Made by a program: the position numbers and the translations under genes. Positions 18,402 to 45,651 of a DNA stretch of 51,735 nucleotides are shown piece by piece. Source of the DNA: a virus; the IMG/VR virus record IMGVR_UViG_3300030329_001756, positions 1-51,735 of that record; one strand, 5' to 3'. The stretch's first letter is position 1; each line of letters opens with the position of its first letter. Under the pieces are notes generated by a model. That model did no database searches, was not told the DNA's origin, and saw only the letters and a program-made list of their open reading frames with translations.

Positions 18402-18478
18402 GGACCCGTAGTTCAGTTGGTTAGAACGAACCGCTCATAACGGTTATGTCGTAGGTTCAAGTCCTACCGGGTCCACCA
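18402..18478 (+). tRNA. tRNA with anticodon CAT (Met elongator or Ile2)
   Basis: 77 nt: GGACCCG / CGGGTCC acceptor, anticodon arm AACCG-CTCATAA-CGGTT, T arm GTAGG-TTCAAGT-CCTAC, encoded CCA. A paired G1-C72 excludes an initiator tRNA. Met and lysidine-modified Ile2 (reading ATA) cannot be told apart from sequence alone; ATA is common in this AT-rich genome. Confidence 0.93.
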
Positions 18479-18480
18479 AA

Positions 18481-18567
18481 GCGGGCGTGGCGGAATTGGT
18501 AGACGCGGCAGACTTAAAATCTGTTTTCCGTTAGGAAGTGTGGGTTCAAGTCCCGCCGCCCGCACCA
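18481..18567 (+). tRNA. tRNA-Leu (anticodon TAA)
   Basis: 87 nt with the long variable arm of class II tRNAs: GCGGGCG / CGCCCGC acceptor, anticodon arm GCAGA-CTTAAAA-TCTGT with TAA, T arm GGG-TTCAAGT-CCC extended, encoded CCA. Reads TTA, the favoured Leu codon of AT-rich genes. Two bases after the preceding tRNA. Confidence 0.95.
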
Positions 18568-18584
18568 AAAAAAGGAGCTAAACG

Positions 18585-19262
18585 ATGCAGATACAACATA
18601 AAGTTACTGATGATGTGCTTTTTGAGGGGGACTACCTTTCGGTTATGGCTGCGGCAGAAGCCGCTGTCAGAGAGGACGTATCCCTCAAAAACGCTGATCT
18701 CAGGGAGGCTGACCTCGAAGGCGCGAATCTTAGAAGTGCTAACCTCGAAGGCGCGAACCTCAGAGGCGCACGCCTCATCGACGCTGACCTTGAAGACGCA
18801 TATCTCGCAGAAGTTGATCTCAGAGGCGCATACCTCGAAGGCGCGAACCTCAGAGGCGCATACCTCATCAACACTGACCTTGAAGGCGCGTATCTCAAAG
18901 GCGCGAACCTCAGAGGCGCATATCTCAGAGGCGCGTGCTTCGGGGGCACCCACCTCGAAGGCTCTAACCTCGAAGGCGCGCGGCTCAAGGGTGATGACCT
19001 CATCGACGCTGGTCAAGACCGGCGCGGGTTTCAGTTCATCGGCTGCCGCTTCGCCAATGGGGTATGGGTGGTGGTTGGGTGCCGCTGGTTCTCCTTATCC
19101 GACGCCAGAGCGCATTGGGGTGAGGGCTATCCCGGCGACGCGGCGAGCAAGGCGTGGGCGTACACTGACACTGGCGACAGGGTTGAGATCAACGCCAAGT
19201 TGGACCTGATCGAGGCGACCGCGCAGTCGCGGGGGTGGAAACAGCCTGAAAAGGAGAAGTGA
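18585..19262 (+). CDS. Pentapeptide-repeat protein (225 aa)
   Basis: Residues about 33-145 are about 23 tandem pentapeptides of the A(D/N)Lxx type (ADLREADLEGANL...), which fold as a right-handed quadrilateral beta helix. Some members mimic DNA and block gyrase; others have unknown roles. The C-terminal 80 residues (FQFIGCRF...WFSLSDARAHWG) form a separate domain. AGGAG 7 bases before ATG. GC content is far above the flanks, so it was likely acquired from a GC-rich donor, and it lies beside tRNAs, a common insertion point. Confidence 0.9.
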   Translation: MQIQHKVTDDVLFEGDYLSVMAAAEAAVREDVSLKNADLREADLEGANLRSANLEGANLRGARLIDADLEDAYLAEVDLRGAYLEGANLRGAYLINTDLEGAYLKGANLRGAYLRGACFGGTHLEGSNLEGARLKGDDLIDAGQDRRGFQFIGCRFANGVWVVVGCRWFSLSDARAHWGEGYPGDAASKAWAYTDTGDRVEINAKLDLIEATAQSRGWKQPEKEK

Positions 19263-20454: not shown

Positions 20455-20928
20455 TTATTCTTTAGAGGCGATGTATTTCCTTGCTTTAGACATGGCTCTG
20501 TTACCAAACCAAAAAGCTATAATAGCAGAAAATATAGCTTGCGTTTCAGAATCCCAAGCTGTCTCTATCGCTACTGTCCAATCAACATTTTGATTAGAGA
20601 TTAAAGCGTACATGAGTACACCTTTAACACAAATAAACATCATGAAGAAAAGATAAGTAATGACAGGGCGCACAGAACCCCTGAGAGAGTTGATAAAAGC
20701 TCCAGAGTCGATAGTTCTATCATGTTCGTATATACTCTTTGTTTCTTGAATGTCTGCTTCAGCGTCAAGTTCTTTAAGCTTTAGTTCTGATAGTTGTGAA
20801 GCATACTTAGCTTTAGCTTCAAGCATGTTGAGTTCTTGTTCGTTGGCTTGCTTTTGTTTGAAGTAGCCTAATACTTCAGGTACAATGGACGTACCAAAGC
20901 CTAGAAGAGTGCCTAGAAGACTGATCAC
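20455..20928 (-). CDS. 3TM-type holin-like protein (157 aa)
   Basis: Fits the holin family of three membrane segments (Holin_3TMs type, best known from gene-transfer agents): an N-terminal hydrophobic MISLLGTLLGFGTSIV, a helical linker, RGSVRPVITYLFFMMFI (about 84-100), and IFSAIIAFWFGNRAMSKAR (about 133-150). Holins open the inner membrane at lysis. It overlaps the EF-hand gene by 4 bases and is last in the late unit. Confidence 0.7.
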   Translation of the reverse strand: MISLLGTLLGFGTSIVPEVLGYFKQKQANEQELNMLEAKAKYASQLSELKLKELDAEADIQETKSIYEHDRTIDSGAFINSLRGSVRPVITYLFFMMFICVKGVLMYALISNQNVDWTVAIETAWDSETQAIFSAIIAFWFGNRAMSKARKYIASKE

Positions 20929-36966: not shown

Positions 36967-38463
36967 CTACATCCTTGTTCCCGGTGTAAATTCTAATTGA
37001 AAACCTTTTAATGTAATAGGTGGATTGCTTGATGTATCATCAATTTTAACAACTGCTGTAAATCCACTTCCTTCTATAGGTTGTCTAACGATTGGGAAAC
37101 CTTCTGATCCATAAACTCCTGAACCATACGTTGTTCCTCCATACAAAGCGTGTGAAACCTGAGTAGTAAGATTGTAATTTGCTGGTTGCGGAATATCAGC
37201 ATTCTCAAAATCAAATTTAACACCTAACATAAGGTCTACTTCACCCTCTGAATCATAATTAACATTTATTCTTTGCATATTTTTACGAATACCAGCATCA
37301 CCTAATGTAAGATCAGGAGAACGATAAGATGCTCGTATATTAGTTCCTGCAAAAGTGTTACCGCTTTCTTGTTGATATACATAGCCATCATATCCGCCAT
37401 GCACAACTACTTCATCATTACTTATATAATAAGAATCACAACAAGAAGGTTTAATTCCTTTTAAATCTGCCCATTCCCAGCCTATACCACCTTGAGGAGT
37501 TGCTTTAATAACACCTATAATACCTTTTGCTGCTTTTTCAATGCCGTTTGTTGAAGGAGTAAATAAACGATATTGGCTTTTTTCTCTTATAACAACAGAA
37601 CTAATTCTGTCTAATATAACATCTTCAAATCTTCTTTGAATAGGTTTAGAAATAGAACCTAATTCAATATCGCCAATCCTAGCAGTACCTTGCACTGTGC
37701 GAATACCATCAGGACCGAGAAACGCTAGATCACCTCCTATCTCCTGTATGCTAAATCCATCTAAGCAGCCAATATGTCTAGAAATATTTTCGATAGCAAA
37801 AGAAGCTAATCCGCTTCCTGTAAGCTTAAATATTCTATCTTGGCAAAAGATGAAAAGGTTATCACGAAAAACTTTTAATCCTGTTACATTATCATCAACT
37901 TTAATAGAACCAGCACCATTCGATGCTTGAAAATCATCTTCATTAAACGGTGCAGAAAAAACTATTTCTTGCGGATTTGAAGACATTCCTGCATAAAACA
38001 TATGGCTTCTAAACGAAGCTACGTGTTGAGCATCTGTAGGAACACCACTTGCAGTGATTGTAGCAACAGTATTTCCAGTAAGAACGCGAGGATTATCTGC
38101 TCCATTTACAAGAATAAGTTTTTCCGTATTTTCGTAATTGAATCTTTCTCCCATGTACCTTCCGCTTGCATTAAGACCTGTTTCAAGATTTGTCCAAGAA
38201 CTTCCTGCGCTACGAGCTAATGTACCGTTTGAGATAGCAAATACTTGATCATTATAAACAAACACACCTTGAACAGTGTTGCTACCGTTTACTTGAGAAG
38301 AAGAATATTTTGAAGTTCCTTCAAGTCTTCTATACCCACCAAGAATTGACGGTTCAAAATTATTTAAAATTGAAGCCGCTCCCGGCGGCATTGAGTAAAC
38401 GTCTTGATCAAGAATAAGTCCACCACTGACTGTAACAATACTGGAAGTAATTTGTTGTGTCAT
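36967..38463 (-). CDS. Tail tubular protein B-like (498 aa)
   Basis: Nozzle protein of the short tail, below the A ring. Starts MTQQITSSIVTVSGGL and has repeated beta-strand blocks (QGVFVYNDQVFAISNGTLAR, TGLKVFRDNLFIFCQDRIFKL, DGFSIQEIGGDLAFLGPDGI) typical of the beta-propeller in T7 gp12 homologues. Its first ATG overlaps the stop of the A protein. Shorter than T7 gp12 (794), but similar to marine podoviral versions. Confidence 0.8.
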   Translation of the reverse strand: MTQQITSSIVTVSGGLILDQDVYSMPPGAASILNNFEPSILGGYRRLEGTSKYSSSQVNGSNTVQGVFVYNDQVFAISNGTLARSAGSSWTNLETGLNASGRYMGERFNYENTEKLILVNGADNPRVLTGNTVATITASGVPTDAQHVASFRSHMFYAGMSSNPQEIVFSAPFNEDDFQASNGAGSIKVDDNVTGLKVFRDNLFIFCQDRIFKLTGSGLASFAIENISRHIGCLDGFSIQEIGGDLAFLGPDGIRTVQGTARIGDIELGSISKPIQRRFEDVILDRISSVVIREKSQYRLFTPSTNGIEKAAKGIIGVIKATPQGGIGWEWADLKGIKPSCCDSYYISNDEVVVHGGYDGYVYQQESGNTFAGTNIRASYRSPDLTLGDAGIRKNMQRINVNYDSEGEVDLMLGVKFDFENADIPQPANYNLTTQVSHALYGGTTYGSGVYGSEGFPIVRQPIEGSGFTAVVKIDDTSSNPPITLKGFQLEFTPGTRM

Positions 38464-41059: not shown

Positions 41060-41905
41060 TTAAATTGAGTCAACGATACGCCCGTCACGGGCAGCAGCGT
41101 CAATCTCTTTCTCTAGTTTTTCATATTCCCACGGTTTGAGGCGGGAGATTTCTTCAATAGTCCAAACTTTCTTATCAGAACCTAAAGGCTCTAAACCTTT
41201 ACTGGTTCTTGTAACAGCTTGTGCAGCTTGTGCATTAGACTGTCTAGAATTAGAACGAGTAGACTTTGATTGACCGATATCAGCTTTATAAAGATCAATT
41301 ACTCTAGCGGCCCATTTTACATCTGAACTGTTGTGGTACACACCATCAGATATACTTTCAGGTTGTTCTTCAAGCCAGTTGATAAAGTTTTCGTCAGTTT
41401 TAAGTTCGTTGAAATCTGGATGAAGTGCAAGAAGTTGTTTTTCTGAAGTAATTCTTTCAGCTTCTACTTCTTTTTCTTTTAGATATTCAAGTTGATCTTC
41501 AACTTCCTTTACTTTATCTTGTGCTTTAAGAGTAGAGATAGTTTCAACTACATCGTAGACATCAGGATATTGATCTCTAAAAGTATCTAATTCTTCCCGT
41601 GTCTTTGGAAGCTCTTGAGCAACATTAACAGGTTGTTCAGCCATTTTAAGCTTTGCTTCCATAATCTCTCGATTTTGACGCCATTCGTTAAGTTTGGAAT
41701 CGTAGTGTTTCTTGAGATCGTCGTAACGCTTTTTGTAGTCGTGTTCCTCTTTTTGAATTACACCATCAGACTTTCTAGGAGTAGCCGCTTGTTCAACAGC
41801 GGGGTCCAGTTCGTCTTCATCTGGTTCGCTCAATGTTCGCCTGTACTCATTTTCATATGGGGTAGGCTCTAGTAATTCTTCTTCTTGTGTAGTATCATCG
41901 GTCAT
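41060..41905 (-). CDS. Scaffolding protein (281 aa)
   Basis: Very charged, acidic N-terminus (MTDDTTQEEELLEPTPYENE), a long coiled coil (YKKRYDDLKKHYDSKLNEWRQ) and a basic/Ala/Gln-rich C-terminus that would touch the capsid. Typical of capsid assembly scaffolds such as T7 gp9. I use ATG 41905 with AGGAG 9 bases upstream, rather than the GTG at 41938, whose codons contain that binding site. It directly precedes the major capsid gene. Confidence 0.88.
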   Translation of the reverse strand: MTDDTTQEEELLEPTPYENEYRRTLSEPDEDELDPAVEQAATPRKSDGVIQKEEHDYKKRYDDLKKHYDSKLNEWRQNREIMEAKLKMAEQPVNVAQELPKTREELDTFRDQYPDVYDVVETISTLKAQDKVKEVEDQLEYLKEKEVEAERITSEKQLLALHPDFNELKTDENFINWLEEQPESISDGVYHNSSDVKWAARVIDLYKADIGQSKSTRSNSRQSNAQAAQAVTRTSKGLEPLGSDKKVWTIEEISRLKPWEYEKLEKEIDAAARDGRIVDSI

Positions 41906-41927
41906 TTTTATTATCTCCTTTTTCTCT

Positions 41928-42003
41928 GGGGCCGACACGTAGCCGGGTAGCCGTTCAGAGGAGTAGTGTTAATTAGCGGGGCCAATATTGTATCGGGTAG
42001 CCG
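41928..42003. repeat. GC-rich direct repeat in the scaffold leader (50-bp period)
   Basis: GGGGCC-N10-CGGGTAGCCG occurs at 41928-41953 and again at 41978-42003 exactly 50 bases apart, in an otherwise AT-rich region between the peptidase-like gene and the scaffold. On the minus strand it lies 20-100 bases upstream of the scaffold ribosome binding site. AAGACT-GAAGAA-AGTCTT upstream could be a weak hairpin. Possible RNA processing or regulatory role. Confidence 0.7.
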
Positions 42004-42055
42004 CTCCGTTTAAAGACTTTCTTCAGTCTTATCTATGTTATGTGTCGGTTGTGCG

Positions 42056-43429
42056 CTATTTATTTTTTCTTGCAGCAGCCCAACGCATAGTGTTTATCTT
42101 TTTTAGTCCGTTATCAGTAAATCCTATATCAACATGTATTCCAGTACCATGTTCAAAGTCTTTAGTGATTAAGTAATCTTTGTTTTCTTCAAGACCGTAA
42201 TTATTTTTAAGTTTTTTTATTAGGTCTTTCGTATATTTTTTATAATCTTTTACTTTGTTTGTTTTATATGTAAAATCAAGTTTAGTTCCTCTTAGATGTC
42301 TACTGGGTGGTTTCCCTGCTTTTTTTCGATCATCATAATAAGAACCATGATGAAATTTATCATTTTGTGCAGTAACTCTACCAAATTTATTAGGTAAACT
42401 TTTTTGAATTTCACCAGCCATCCAAGTAACATCAGGATCGTTATATCTTCCCAGATCAATAGAATCTGTACCTAAATAATCTTTATCCCACTTTTTTTGT
42501 CCACCTTTAAATGCTTGACCACCTAACCGAGATAATTCAGAATAGTATTTTACGCCTAAATCTCTTAGAGTTTTATCTCCAAATTTTTCTGTTTTAACTC
42601 TTAAATCTAAAACTGATTCTGGAAGTATGTCCATAATATCAACATTAAGTTCTTTCTCTTCAAATTCACCTGTTTTCCAAGAACCCGGATTGTGTTCAAC
42701 AGAGACTAACTGTTTTTCTATGTCAGTAGGTAGTTCCACAAATCCTCCTTCATCAAATTTTAACTTCAACCTTGCATAACCTTCTTTATTTCCTCCAGAA
42801 GTAGAAGCTCCTATAGATGCTTCTCCGCGATTATTAAGAAATTTACGTTTTAATTCAGCACGATACGTATTTTTAGGTTTTCCGTGTGGTGGCATTACTT
42901 TTTCAGCACCTACGCTACCAAAATAATCTCCAAAATTTTTACCAACATTAAAATCATACTTTTTTTGACCTGATGGATTTTCTTTTTCAAAACCTAAATC
43001 TAAAGTACCGTCTTCTAAAAATTTTAAACCTAATCTGCCTTTTAAAGAACTTCCCTCTCTTTTAGATTTAAACCAAGCATTAGTAAAATTTTCATTTCCT
43101 TTAACATATTCTATTAACAATTTTTCAACATCATTTTCACGATCAGAAGGTACATTATATTCTGCCATTAAACTATTTACAGCACGTTTTACAGTTTCTT
43201 CATAATCATTAACTTTAAATGTTTCTTTTCCAGACGATCTTCCTGCTTGTCCTTGAATACTTCCTTTTCCTACAGGAATTTTAATTCCTACACTAACATC
43301 ATATTTATTTTTCTTTGTACTAAAAGGTCTAGATTCAGATGGTGCTTTATGTTTTGATCCGTATCTATAATTAAATCTTGGAATAAAAAGAGGTTTATCT
43401 TGAGCTACTAAATCACCATCTTTATAGGC
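42056..43429 (-). CDS. M15-like zinc peptidase domain, probably reached by -1 frameshift (457 codons)
   Basis: Open from the A9 slip site to 42056, without ATG or ribosome binding site until ATG 43168, which has none. The first 200 codons are repeated beta-like segments (KGRLGLKFLEDGTLDLGF; RAELKRKFLNNRGEASIGAS). The C-terminal 110 residues read PSRHLRGTKLDFTYK and later EHGTGIHVDIGF, matching the SxHxxGxxxD ... H zinc motif of M15 peptidases that cut peptidoglycan cross-links; zinc ligands would be the two His and the Asp, with Glu or Asp near the last His as base. As a fusion the product would be about 688 aa. Virion lysin is a good guess. Confidence 0.65.
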   Translation of the reverse strand, partial: AYKDGDLVAQDKPLFIPRFNYRYGSKHKAPSESRPFSTKKNKYDVSVGIKIPVGKGSIQGQAGRSSGKETFKVNDYEETVKRAVNSLMAEYNVPSDRENDVEKLLIEYVKGNENFTNAWFKSKREGSSLKGRLGLKFLEDGTLDLGFEKENPSGQKKYDFNVGKNFGDYFGSVGAEKVMPPHGKPKNTYRAELKRKFLNNRGEASIGASTSGGNKEGYARLKLKFDEGGFVELPTDIEKQLVSVEHNPGSWKTGEFEEKELNVDIMDILPESVLDLRVKTEKFGDKTLRDLGVKYYSELSRLGGQAFKGGQKKWDKDYLGTDSIDLGRYNDPDVTWMAGEIQKSLPNKFGRVTAQNDKFHHGSYYDDRKKAGKPPSRHLRGTKLDFTYKTNKVKDYKKYTKDLIKKLKNNYGLEENKDYLITKDFEHGTGIHVDIGFTDNGLKKINTMRWAAARKNK

Positions 43430-44121
43430 TTTTTTTTTACAAGACCTCCACCTCTCATATCCAAAGTCTGTTTTTCCATAGTCTTTGTAGGAGGTTGTAA
43501 AGGATTGTTAAAACCGGGATTGTCCACATTACCAACACCTTGCATTGGAACGTATCCACCGCCTTTCATCATAGGCATAGCTGGTGCTTGTTGAGGCATA
43601 GCTAGTGCTTCTTCAGGCAATTCTTCTTGCGGAGGAATTTCAGGCATTGCAGCACCTAAACCTTCAACATCCTCGCTTGGTCTTTCCATGAACCCGTCAT
43701 TTCTTCCTGCTTCAAGTTGCGCTCTAAATTCTAATCCTTTTTCACGTAAAGCATTCAAAACGTCCATTCCTATGTACGGAATCAGTTCTTGAGGAACACG
43801 ATATTCATAATTAGAGATTTGAATAGGAACTTCATCTTGTGGATCAATTTCTTCTACTTGTATATCATCCTGTTCAGCAGCAGAAGCAGCTTCAAGAATC
43901 ATATTGTTTATTTCTTCAAATCCTACAAACAGAATAGTCTCGTAAGGAAGGATAAAATCACCTTCTTTAGCAGTAGCAGAAACATCGTCTTCCATAGATG
44001 CTACACCCTCATCAGGTAAAGCACCTTCAGCTTCATTCACCATTCCCGGTTCTAAAGCATCCCCTTCTAATAAGGGCGCTGGCGGTGCATTCATCATTTC
44101 TGGTCTGTCCATTAGTGCCAT
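43408..44121 (-). CDS. Virion-type protein carrying the -1 slip site (237 aa)
   Basis: Acidic Pro/Glu/Met-rich N-terminus (MMNAPPAPLLEGDALEPG, PPQEELPEEALAMPQQ), a globular piece with VPIQISNYEYRVPQELIPYIG, and a tail with MKGGGYVPMQG and MRGGGLVKKK. Such Gly-Gly-Gly-aromatic motifs occur in small virion-module proteins of marine podoviruses. It ends PIKMVI in frame 0. Ribosomes slipping at codon 231 would instead enter the peptidase frame. Lies between the 493-aa gene and the scaffold. Confidence 0.75.
   Translation of the reverse strand: MALMDRPEMMNAPPAPLLEGDALEPGMVNEAEGALPDEGVASMEDDVSATAKEGDFILPYETILFVGFEEINNMILEAASAAEQDDIQVEEIDPQDEVPIQISNYEYRVPQELIPYIGMDVLNALREKGLEFRAQLEAGRNDGFMERPSEDVEGLGAAMPEIPPQEELPEEALAMPQQAPAMPMMKGGGYVPMQGVGNVDNPGFNNPLQPPTKTMEKQTLDMRGGGLVKKKPIKMVI
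43429..43449 (-). promoter_or_regulatory. Programmed -1 frameshift signal (candidate)
   Basis: Minus strand GGAGGT (43449-43444), 8 bases, then A9-G (43438-43429). In frame 0 the codons are GTA AAA AAA AAG, so the heptamer A-AAA-AAG, the strong slip site of E. coli dnaX, is in phase, with a Shine-Dalgarno-like stimulator at the dnaX-like distance. The -1 frame stays open for 457 codons; frame 0 stops after six more codons. Confidence 0.7.
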
Positions 44122-44169: not shown

Positions 44170-45651
44170 TTATGCTCCAACATCTTCACCCGCTGGATCA
44201 TCCGCTTCGTCCCCGCCGCCGCCGCCGCCGGGGCCTCCGCTGTCTTCGTCGTCTGCTCCTACGTCTTCTGCTGTTCCAGCCGAGCCAACATCAGGACCAG
44301 TGTCTTCTTCGCTTGGTTCATCTTGATCAGGATCACCATCGTCGGTTGTAGAGGTATCTTCTTCCTGTTGTTGTACAACTTGTACTATTTGAGGAAGAAC
44401 AGGTTCTTCAGGATCAATAGTGCCAGCCCAAACATCTCCATACGGATTAGCTAAAGTTTTTAAATCATAATAATAACTTGCGCCACCAGTAAACAAATTC
44501 ATTCTATAAAATGATGCTGGGTCCATTCCTACTGGTACATCAAAAGTTCCTGATCCTGTCTGACCTACAAGCTTTCTATGTTCGTTTCTTAAATCTTGAA
44601 TACTGTTAATCATTCTGTTATTGATAACAAGCTTACCACTAATAGGATCAATTCTCATAGGAACATCGAAATGTTGAAAAAGACGTACAGCTTGATCCAT
44701 CAAATTACCGGGATCAATAGCTGAACTAGGGTCGTATTGTAAGCCAAACTCAGGTGTAAAATCTTCAAATTCGTCAATTTGAGCTTGTCTTTCTTCGTAT
44801 ATTCTCATAGCTTCTTCAAATTCAGCTAACTCTTGTTCATATCCCTCTCTAATTGAATCAGGCGTTTGTGACCACGTTGTCCACGCTGGATTATCATAAT
44901 TTATGTCTTGATATCCAATCTTCTCGACCATTCCCCAATCGCCCTCACCATATTCTTCATAGTCTTCATAGGTATAAGGTTCTCTTTTTGTAATGTATCT
45001 AGCAGGCTCTGGACCTCTAGCAAAATCTTCAGGAACATCAGGAGCAATTGGTTTAATATTCTTTAAAGAAACCCAACCTTCAGGAGCAATGAATCCTTCG
45101 TGAGGCGCTCTTACTACTTGCCTAGTAGTAGGATTAAAATAAATTTCTTCTTGTTCTCCTACCGTAACGCCTTGATCAGGAGCAGTAAACCCAGCGTCAT
45201 CCCACGTAACAGTTCTATAGTTAGCTCCTTGTTCTGGAGTTTTTAATGAAAATCCTGTTCCTCCTTTTTCAGTTCCAAGAAACTCTTGACCAAGCAAATC
45301 AAGAGATTTTTGCCAATCTAGTTTTTCATAGTCAAAATAAGGGTTAATACCGGAAACAGACGGTAAAGTTGGAAAAAGTGAATCAGTATACTTTTCCTTT
45401 CGTGGTTCTGAATAAGGTTTGTACATTGCATCTTTTTGTTCTTGAGTAGGTGCAGTAACAAACGATTTTTGTTTTAACGGTCCAGTAACATATTTTTTAG
45501 TAAGAGGAAGACTAGGATCAACGTAGCCGGGTGTAGCAGACATATCAGGAGCGACGTTCATAACATCACCCTTTTTCCTTTTCATAAAAGGTCTATTTTT
45601 TACTTTACTGTATGTATCAAAATACGAAGGATATATGTTAGGGTCTGCCAT
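44170..45651 (-). CDS. Unknown virion-module protein with acidic Gly-rich tail (493 aa)
   Basis: Soluble, Tyr/Pro/Asp-rich, few helices. The last 70 residues are low complexity: Asp/Glu/Gly/Ser with a run of seven Gly-rich residues (GPGGGGGGDEADDPAGED), encoded by GCC repeats. No family recognised. Position between portal and capsid genes, and a 2-base gap to the 76-aa overlapping gene, suggest a head or head-tail accessory protein. Confidence 0.6.
   Translation of the reverse strand: MADPNIYPSYFDTYSKVKNRPFMKRKKGDVMNVAPDMSATPGYVDPSLPLTKKYVTGPLKQKSFVTAPTQEQKDAMYKPYSEPRKEKYTDSLFPTLPSVSGINPYFDYEKLDWQKSLDLLGQEFLGTEKGGTGFSLKTPEQGANYRTVTWDDAGFTAPDQGVTVGEQEEIYFNPTTRQVVRAPHEGFIAPEGWVSLKNIKPIAPDVPEDFARGPEPARYITKREPYTYEDYEEYGEGDWGMVEKIGYQDINYDNPAWTTWSQTPDSIREGYEQELAEFEEAMRIYEERQAQIDEFEDFTPEFGLQYDPSSAIDPGNLMDQAVRLFQHFDVPMRIDPISGKLVINNRMINSIQDLRNEHRKLVGQTGSGTFDVPVGMDPASFYRMNLFTGGASYYYDLKTLANPYGDVWAGTIDPEEPVLPQIVQVVQQQEEDTSTTDDGDPDQDEPSEEDTGPDVGSAGTAEDVGADDEDSGGPGGGGGGDEADDPAGEDVGA

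Follow-up and report, generated by a model that had tools for sequence, protein, structure and literature searches.

Results

Gene order and anatomy of the junction

The DNA analysed here, referred to as the window, is a single virus record of 51.7 kb (IMG/VR record IMGVR_UViG_3300030329_001756, 51,735 nucleotides) whose portal protein is closest to those of the HMO-2011-type pelagiphages and roseophages (57% identity to HTVC033P). Along the minus strand lie, in order, the portal gene, a variable gene (44170-45651), the core gene (the frame-0 ORF of Table 1), a scaffold-like gene (41060-41905) and the major capsid gene. The position of the core gene between the portal and scaffold genes suggests that its product is probably a virion or ejection protein. 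A tblastn search for relatives of P0001 in annotated phages found none.

The variable gene upstream of the core is also strongly divergent between phages that are otherwise 90-97% identical, and in the loci L016, L017 and L024 a single long ORF spans both this region and the core. In the gap between the cassette and the scaffold gene (41900-42020, minus strand) there are two similar hairpin-like elements, GCGGCTACCCGAT..ATTGGCCCCGC and GGCTACCCGGCT..TCGGCCCC, for which Rfam gave no match; related GAGCTACCC motifs occupy the same location in HTVC033P and HTVC115P.

Table 1. Features of the core-cargo locus, in window coordinates
Feature	Position	Strand	Remarks
Frame-0 ORF, 237 aa, core protein (probable virion/ejection protein)	43408..44121	-	C-terminus LDMRGGGLVKKKPIKMVI*; relatives L002-L007
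Conserved core domain, EGDFILPYETI...ISNYEYRVPQELIPYIGMDVL...	43711..44019	-	HMM search; common to 59 HMO-2011-group loci
GGAGGT, Shine-Dalgarno-like	43444..43449	-	8 nt upstream of heptamer
A9 run, junction and putative slippage site	43430..43438	-	A10 in L003; A9-A11 in other lineages
A-AAA-AAG heptamer	43429..43435	-	In frame 0, fitting X-XXY-YYZ
Frame-0 stop TAG	43408..43410	-	Soon after the A9 run
-1-frame cargo ORF (KKKAYKDGDLV...)	42056..43438	-	457 codons after run; TAG 42058-42056
Strand-rich region, junction to peptidase-like domain	42740..43405	-	Ends FDEGGFV; differs in L004; AlphaFold2 low confidence
GTG, possible internal start of M15-like domain	42737..42739	-	AGGAGG 4 nt upstream; spacing not kept in L004
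M15-like domain: SRHLRGTKLD (H codon 42298, D 42277), HVD (H 42136, D 42130)	42056..42562	-	No profile or fold match
Conserved 3' flank of cassette (GTCTTTAAACGGAGCGGCTACCCGAT...GGCCCCGC)	41906..42055	-	Found in relatives whatever their cargo

At the junction, frame 0 reads GTA AAA AAA AAG CCT ATA AAG ATG GTG ATT TAG. An earlier note on this DNA, which proposed a ribosomal -1 frameshift at this place, had described a frame 0 (43408-44121) that runs across A9-G, together with some 457 open codons in the -1 frame, as far as 42056; the sequence confirmed all of this. An opening of 457 codons is far beyond chance: in 2000 Markov-1 random segments matched in length, with all three frames considered, the longest open stretch never exceeded 133 codons and its median was 54. 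The GGAGGT upstream of the heptamer, which the note had likened to that of dnaX, is present, but it doubles as the Gly-Gly codons of a GGGLV motif, and since GGAGG is kept in L005 and L006, which lack the cassette, it is not specific to a frameshift site. The note had also found no start with a ribosome binding site in the -1 frame near the junction. None is well supported near the junction, the first ATG lying at 43168, 270 nt past it and without a Shine-Dalgarno sequence, but GTG 42739 does follow an AGGAGG in the window; in L004, 16 nt separate the closest GGAGG from the equivalent GTG.

The idea that coding DNA generally avoids A9 gained no support, and taken by itself A9 is not remarkable in the window (2 observed, being one run counted in both frames, versus 3.2 expected by codon shuffling). 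Off-frame stops past the run, considered as a sign of programming, were no closer than background.

The A-run in close relatives

A search of IMG/VR returned six relatives of the frame-0 protein (L002-L007), which mostly match the window at 89-97% identity in their flanks and differ from it past a conserved LDMR(G/S)GGLV. L004 has A9-G followed by a -1 frame of 672 codons, including KKK, with the same M15-like domain at its end. L002 also has A9, with the heptamer A-AAA-AAC and a different cargo of ~100 codons in the -1 frame, and in L007, with A9 and the heptamer A-AAA-AAT, the -1 frame stops after 11 codons. L005 and L006 have neither cargo nor A9. The run of L003 is A10, giving one continuous ORF of 341 aa. 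L002 and L003 are 99.7% identical over 5.5 kb and A9/A10 is their sole coding indel, the other differences being 12 substitutions and small intergenic indels. No other disrupted structural genes were seen in L002 or L004, and the cargo ORFs are intact in A9 members of the lineage (457 codons in the window, ~670 in L004).

The earlier note had held that homologues with one continuous ORF would refute its proposal. Such ORFs were found in L003 and in the wider family, whose sampled lineages apart from the window's all have the run in frame, but the A9 split with its -1 ORF recurs in L002 and L004. Judged from these sequences, the window's lineage alone shows the split, as a variant of run length.

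In L007 an SLT-like lytic ORF with its own start (L007:420-968) fills the cassette slot; its PHROG matches are a baseplate hub and an internal virion protein with endolysin domain, and L015 has a similar end.

The cargo and other lysis-related genes

The last ~170 residues of the window's cargo carry the zinc signature SxHxxGxxLD...HxD, with S146, H148, G151, D155, H202 and D204 kept in the window and L004. A two-sequence AlphaFold2 model of this M15-like domain (pLDDT 68) has a plausible order of elements, which we take to suit the M15 topology. The M15 peptidase of the earlier note thus keeps its motif, SxHxxGxxxD...HxD, but found no counterpart among known families: searches of PHROGs, PDB sequences, PDB folds and BFVD folds for an M15 match to the cargo were all negative, Pfam gave no hit to it up to E=10, PF08291 had none in the record, and relatives of the domain were found neither in phages nor in GTDB genomes. 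The M15 identity, drawn from motif and topology, is only a motif-level call. The model of the whole cargo was too poor for classifying the strand-rich region.

No separate endolysin was recognised in the window or, by eye and by tblastn against the window, in the examined part of cassette-less L006. With no second one seen in the window, the cargo may have an endolysin role, and for the same reason its roles as entry lysin and as endolysin are indistinguishable. A 157-aa holin-like protein (20455-20928, minus strand; phrog_6637, holin by eye) is 97% identical in L006 and has no recognisable endolysin adjoining. The gene at 36967-38463 (minus strand) matches phrog_5107, labelled "amidase" (lysis), over its full length. 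Its further matches to virion structural families and its place among tail genes make that label a probable misannotation. On the strand opposite to most genes, 18402-19262 (plus) holds tRNA-Met, tRNA-Leu and then a pentapeptide-repeat protein.

A core with exchangeable cargo in the wider family

A core profile search found 59 loci with the core in the HMO-2011 group, most with a C-terminal cargo in the same frame, and in ~50 loci core and cargo form one ORF. As far as these sequences indicate, fusion of core and cargo is the family norm. Pfam identified the cargo as Hydrolase_2 in L016 and L084, Phage_lysozyme2 in L074 and a Pesticin-type lysozyme in L067, and the cargo of L023 matches an endolysin PHROG. 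With L003 fusing the two in one ORF and many relatives fusing other wall hydrolases in frame, it is very probable that the joined product of the window, a core with a C-terminus of muralytic type, is a natural protein, and given the cargos of relatives it is plausible that the window's cargo is a peptidoglycan peptidase.

Past the core domain, L016-L094 show many unrelated cargos, as at a hypervariable swapping site adjoining the scaffold gene. Among those assigned by eye only are possible HExxH zincins and, in L029 and L040, strand-rich modules ending ..YRF. In L016-L022, L024 and L026 a separate lysozyme gene, T4-type by eye, lies just downstream, between core and scaffold, so that in several loci the fused cargo is not the sole lysin.

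Poly-A runs at the core-cargo linker

The KKK linker before the cargo is often written A9-A11, far oftener than KKK elsewhere. Runs of A>=9 made up 14 entries in 531 kb of long ORFs (one run counted twice), most of them in the core-cargo linker. Counted by lineage, they occur in 7 lineages in ~45 kb of tails versus 2 in ~485 kb elsewhere, where 0.19 would be expected in the tails at the background rate (P ~1e-9). A KKK motif in the protein accounts for part of the excess. The effect is codon-level too, since 10/16 KKK in tails carry A>=9 versus 0/31 elsewhere (Fisher p 1.5e-6; 2.5e-5 by lineage), the lone outside hit being a junction of the same core-cargo family and the count elsewhere therefore 0/31.

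By pattern search, the linkers GFIQKKKGD and GFIKKKFGDEV have A10-A11 ahead of different cargos, always in frame, and the window's -1 reading KKKAYKDGDLV resembles the in-frame linkers of relatives (KKKGDVV, KKKFGDEV). Junction runs of A9-A11 are in frame in 14/14 cases in other lineages versus 1/5 in the window's lineage (p 0.0013; 0.07 when collapsed to lineages), the latter sample being the 5 loci with cassette and run, all metagenomic. Recombination, or a need of the protein itself, could explain why the runs stay in frame elsewhere.

Discussion

We propose, with moderate confidence, that slippage at the level of expression, of either kind, joins core and cargo in the window's lineage. The core protein would carry an exchangeable C-terminal cargo through a lysine linker written in poly-A. 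Since the run is out of frame in the window, the fused product would need slippage there: with the DNA run usually at A9, the normal product would be the short, core-only protein of 237 aa, and a slip would yield a minority long form of ~688 aa bearing the cargo, whether the mRNA gains one A or the ribosome shifts by -1 on A-AAA-AAG. In L003 and the other lineages, where the run is in frame, the long form would be the default and slippage would yield the short one. We infer that the short and the long form are both produced, that slipping takes place in transcription or translation and not solely in the DNA, and that the protein is found in the virion, where the cargo would cut peptidoglycan during entry, or else would serve as the endolysin.

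As for the kind of slippage, the ribosomal -1 shift proposed in the earlier note retains its in-frame heptamer. However, a stem-loop downstream of the slip site common to the window, L004, L002 and L007 was not found (z-scores +1.0, -0.4, -3.1 and -1.1, respectively). Given this, slippage by RNA polymerase is no less likely than a ribosomal shift of the dnaX type. It is the poly-A run that is conserved, so polymerase slippage or switching of run length competes with the ribosomal explanation.

Long homopolymers are classic contingency loci. The run might expand and contract during replication (A9 off, A10 on), giving a mixed population of core-only and fusion phages in which slippage during expression is unnecessary, and L002 and L003 fit such phase variation in being the same phage save for their few substitutions, intergenic indels and run length. 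We consider this possible but rather unlikely, since the cargo ORFs have stayed intact in A9 phages and the uniformly in-frame runs of the other sampled lineages (14/14) are contrary to free switching.

It is unlikely that A10 in one frame is the true or ancestral state and that A9 represents a recent loss, whether as a natural null indel or as an error of assembly or sequencing, even though the whole wider family is in frame and L003 has A10. A9 is present in four assemblies of the window's lineage, structural genes elsewhere in L002 and L004 appear undisrupted, and the cargo is intact across hundreds of codons. Noise was judged an improbable source of A9, as the indels between L002 and L003 are confined to intergenic sequence and the run, and the longer runs of other lineages (A10-A11) assemble in frame; counting A9-A11 together, all 14 junction runs there keep the frame, against 1/5 in the window's lineage. 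Least likely, and very improbable in our judgement, is that the downstream ORF is an independent endolysin gene read by re-initiation from GTG 42739, with the open -1 stretch upstream as a fused relic: the AGGAGG 4 nt before that GTG, the nucleotide homology block with L004 that starts there, the free-standing T4-type lysozyme genes and own-start SLT-like ORF in the same core-scaffold slot of other loci (L016-L022, L024 and L026; L007) and the want of another recognised endolysin in the window favour it, but L004 does not preserve the Shine-Dalgarno spacing, the -1 reading is open from the run itself and resembles a linker there, and the module of L002 and L003 has no start near the junction.

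Extending slippage at the run to the family, we suggest more tentatively that the conserved poly-A lysine linker may be a built-in switch that sets the cargo-bearing share of a virion or ejection protein in many marine phages, with the default either "cargo on" (in-frame runs) or "mostly off" (A9, as in the window's lineage). If so, abundant HMO-2011-type phages would dose an entry or lysis enzyme via homopolymer slippage, the trial of a swappable C-terminal module without loss of the core protein would be explained, and the length of the A-run alone should fix the ratio of long to short protein. For annotation, there is a warning that such genes look broken and may not be.

Comparison with known systems

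The earlier note knew of no described system with this exact design, but the general design has been described elsewhere (PMC5009743, PMC4256274). The sequence A-AAA-AAG is the frameshift site of E. coli dnaX (PMC5009743), and the window shares with dnaX both this heptamer in the right frame and a Shine-Dalgarno-like GGAGG ~9 nt upstream. Unlike dnaX, it has no 3' stem-loop shared with relatives, its GGAGG also occurs without the cassette, and the shift would add a long domain rather than truncate the product.

The run of about nine or more A at the frame switch that marks poly-A slippage is present (A9 in the window; A9-A11 at the linker in 7 lineages). In tssM1 of Citrobacter rodentium, 11 A give transcriptional slippage of 20-25% and two length forms (PMC4256274). 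As at our locus, tssM1 and the Shigella genes mxiE and spa13 have an A-run just ahead of an early stop and a long C-terminal domain in another frame, and whether the default is long or short varies between relatives (tssM1 versus tssM3 of Y. pseudotuberculosis; PMC4256274). Here, in contrast, the gene is a phage gene, the cargo is exchangeable, the run is A9 rather than A11 and slippage is deduced from sequence. Little or no slippage was seen on the short A-runs tested with E. coli RNA polymerase (PMC6260861), which may not be the polymerase acting at the window's A9.

Like virion-associated peptidoglycan hydrolases and internal virion proteins with a lysin domain, the core-cargo relatives carry Hydrolase_2, Phage_lysozyme2 and Pesticin domains. 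The fusion in the window's lineage differs from these in being split by reading frame, so that it would exist only by slippage, and its virion location is putative.

Phage Ig-like C-terminal domains (T3, A2, A118/A500 and PSA; PMC5009743) likewise combine a structural protein with a mobile domain that is in frame in some phages and elsewhere is reached by a -1 or +1 shift to give a minority long form, as proposed here, and whether such a domain arrives in the right frame may be a matter of chance (PMC5009743). Here, by contrast, the cargo may be an enzyme that cuts the wall or some different swappable module. Its joint to the core, known at the level of sequence, is a poly-A lysine linker kept across lineages. 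The window's locus is therefore a variant of the known extension of phage proteins at their C-terminus by frameshift or slippage, and what is new is a poly-A joint found family-wide ahead of swappable cargo, with one lineage out of frame.
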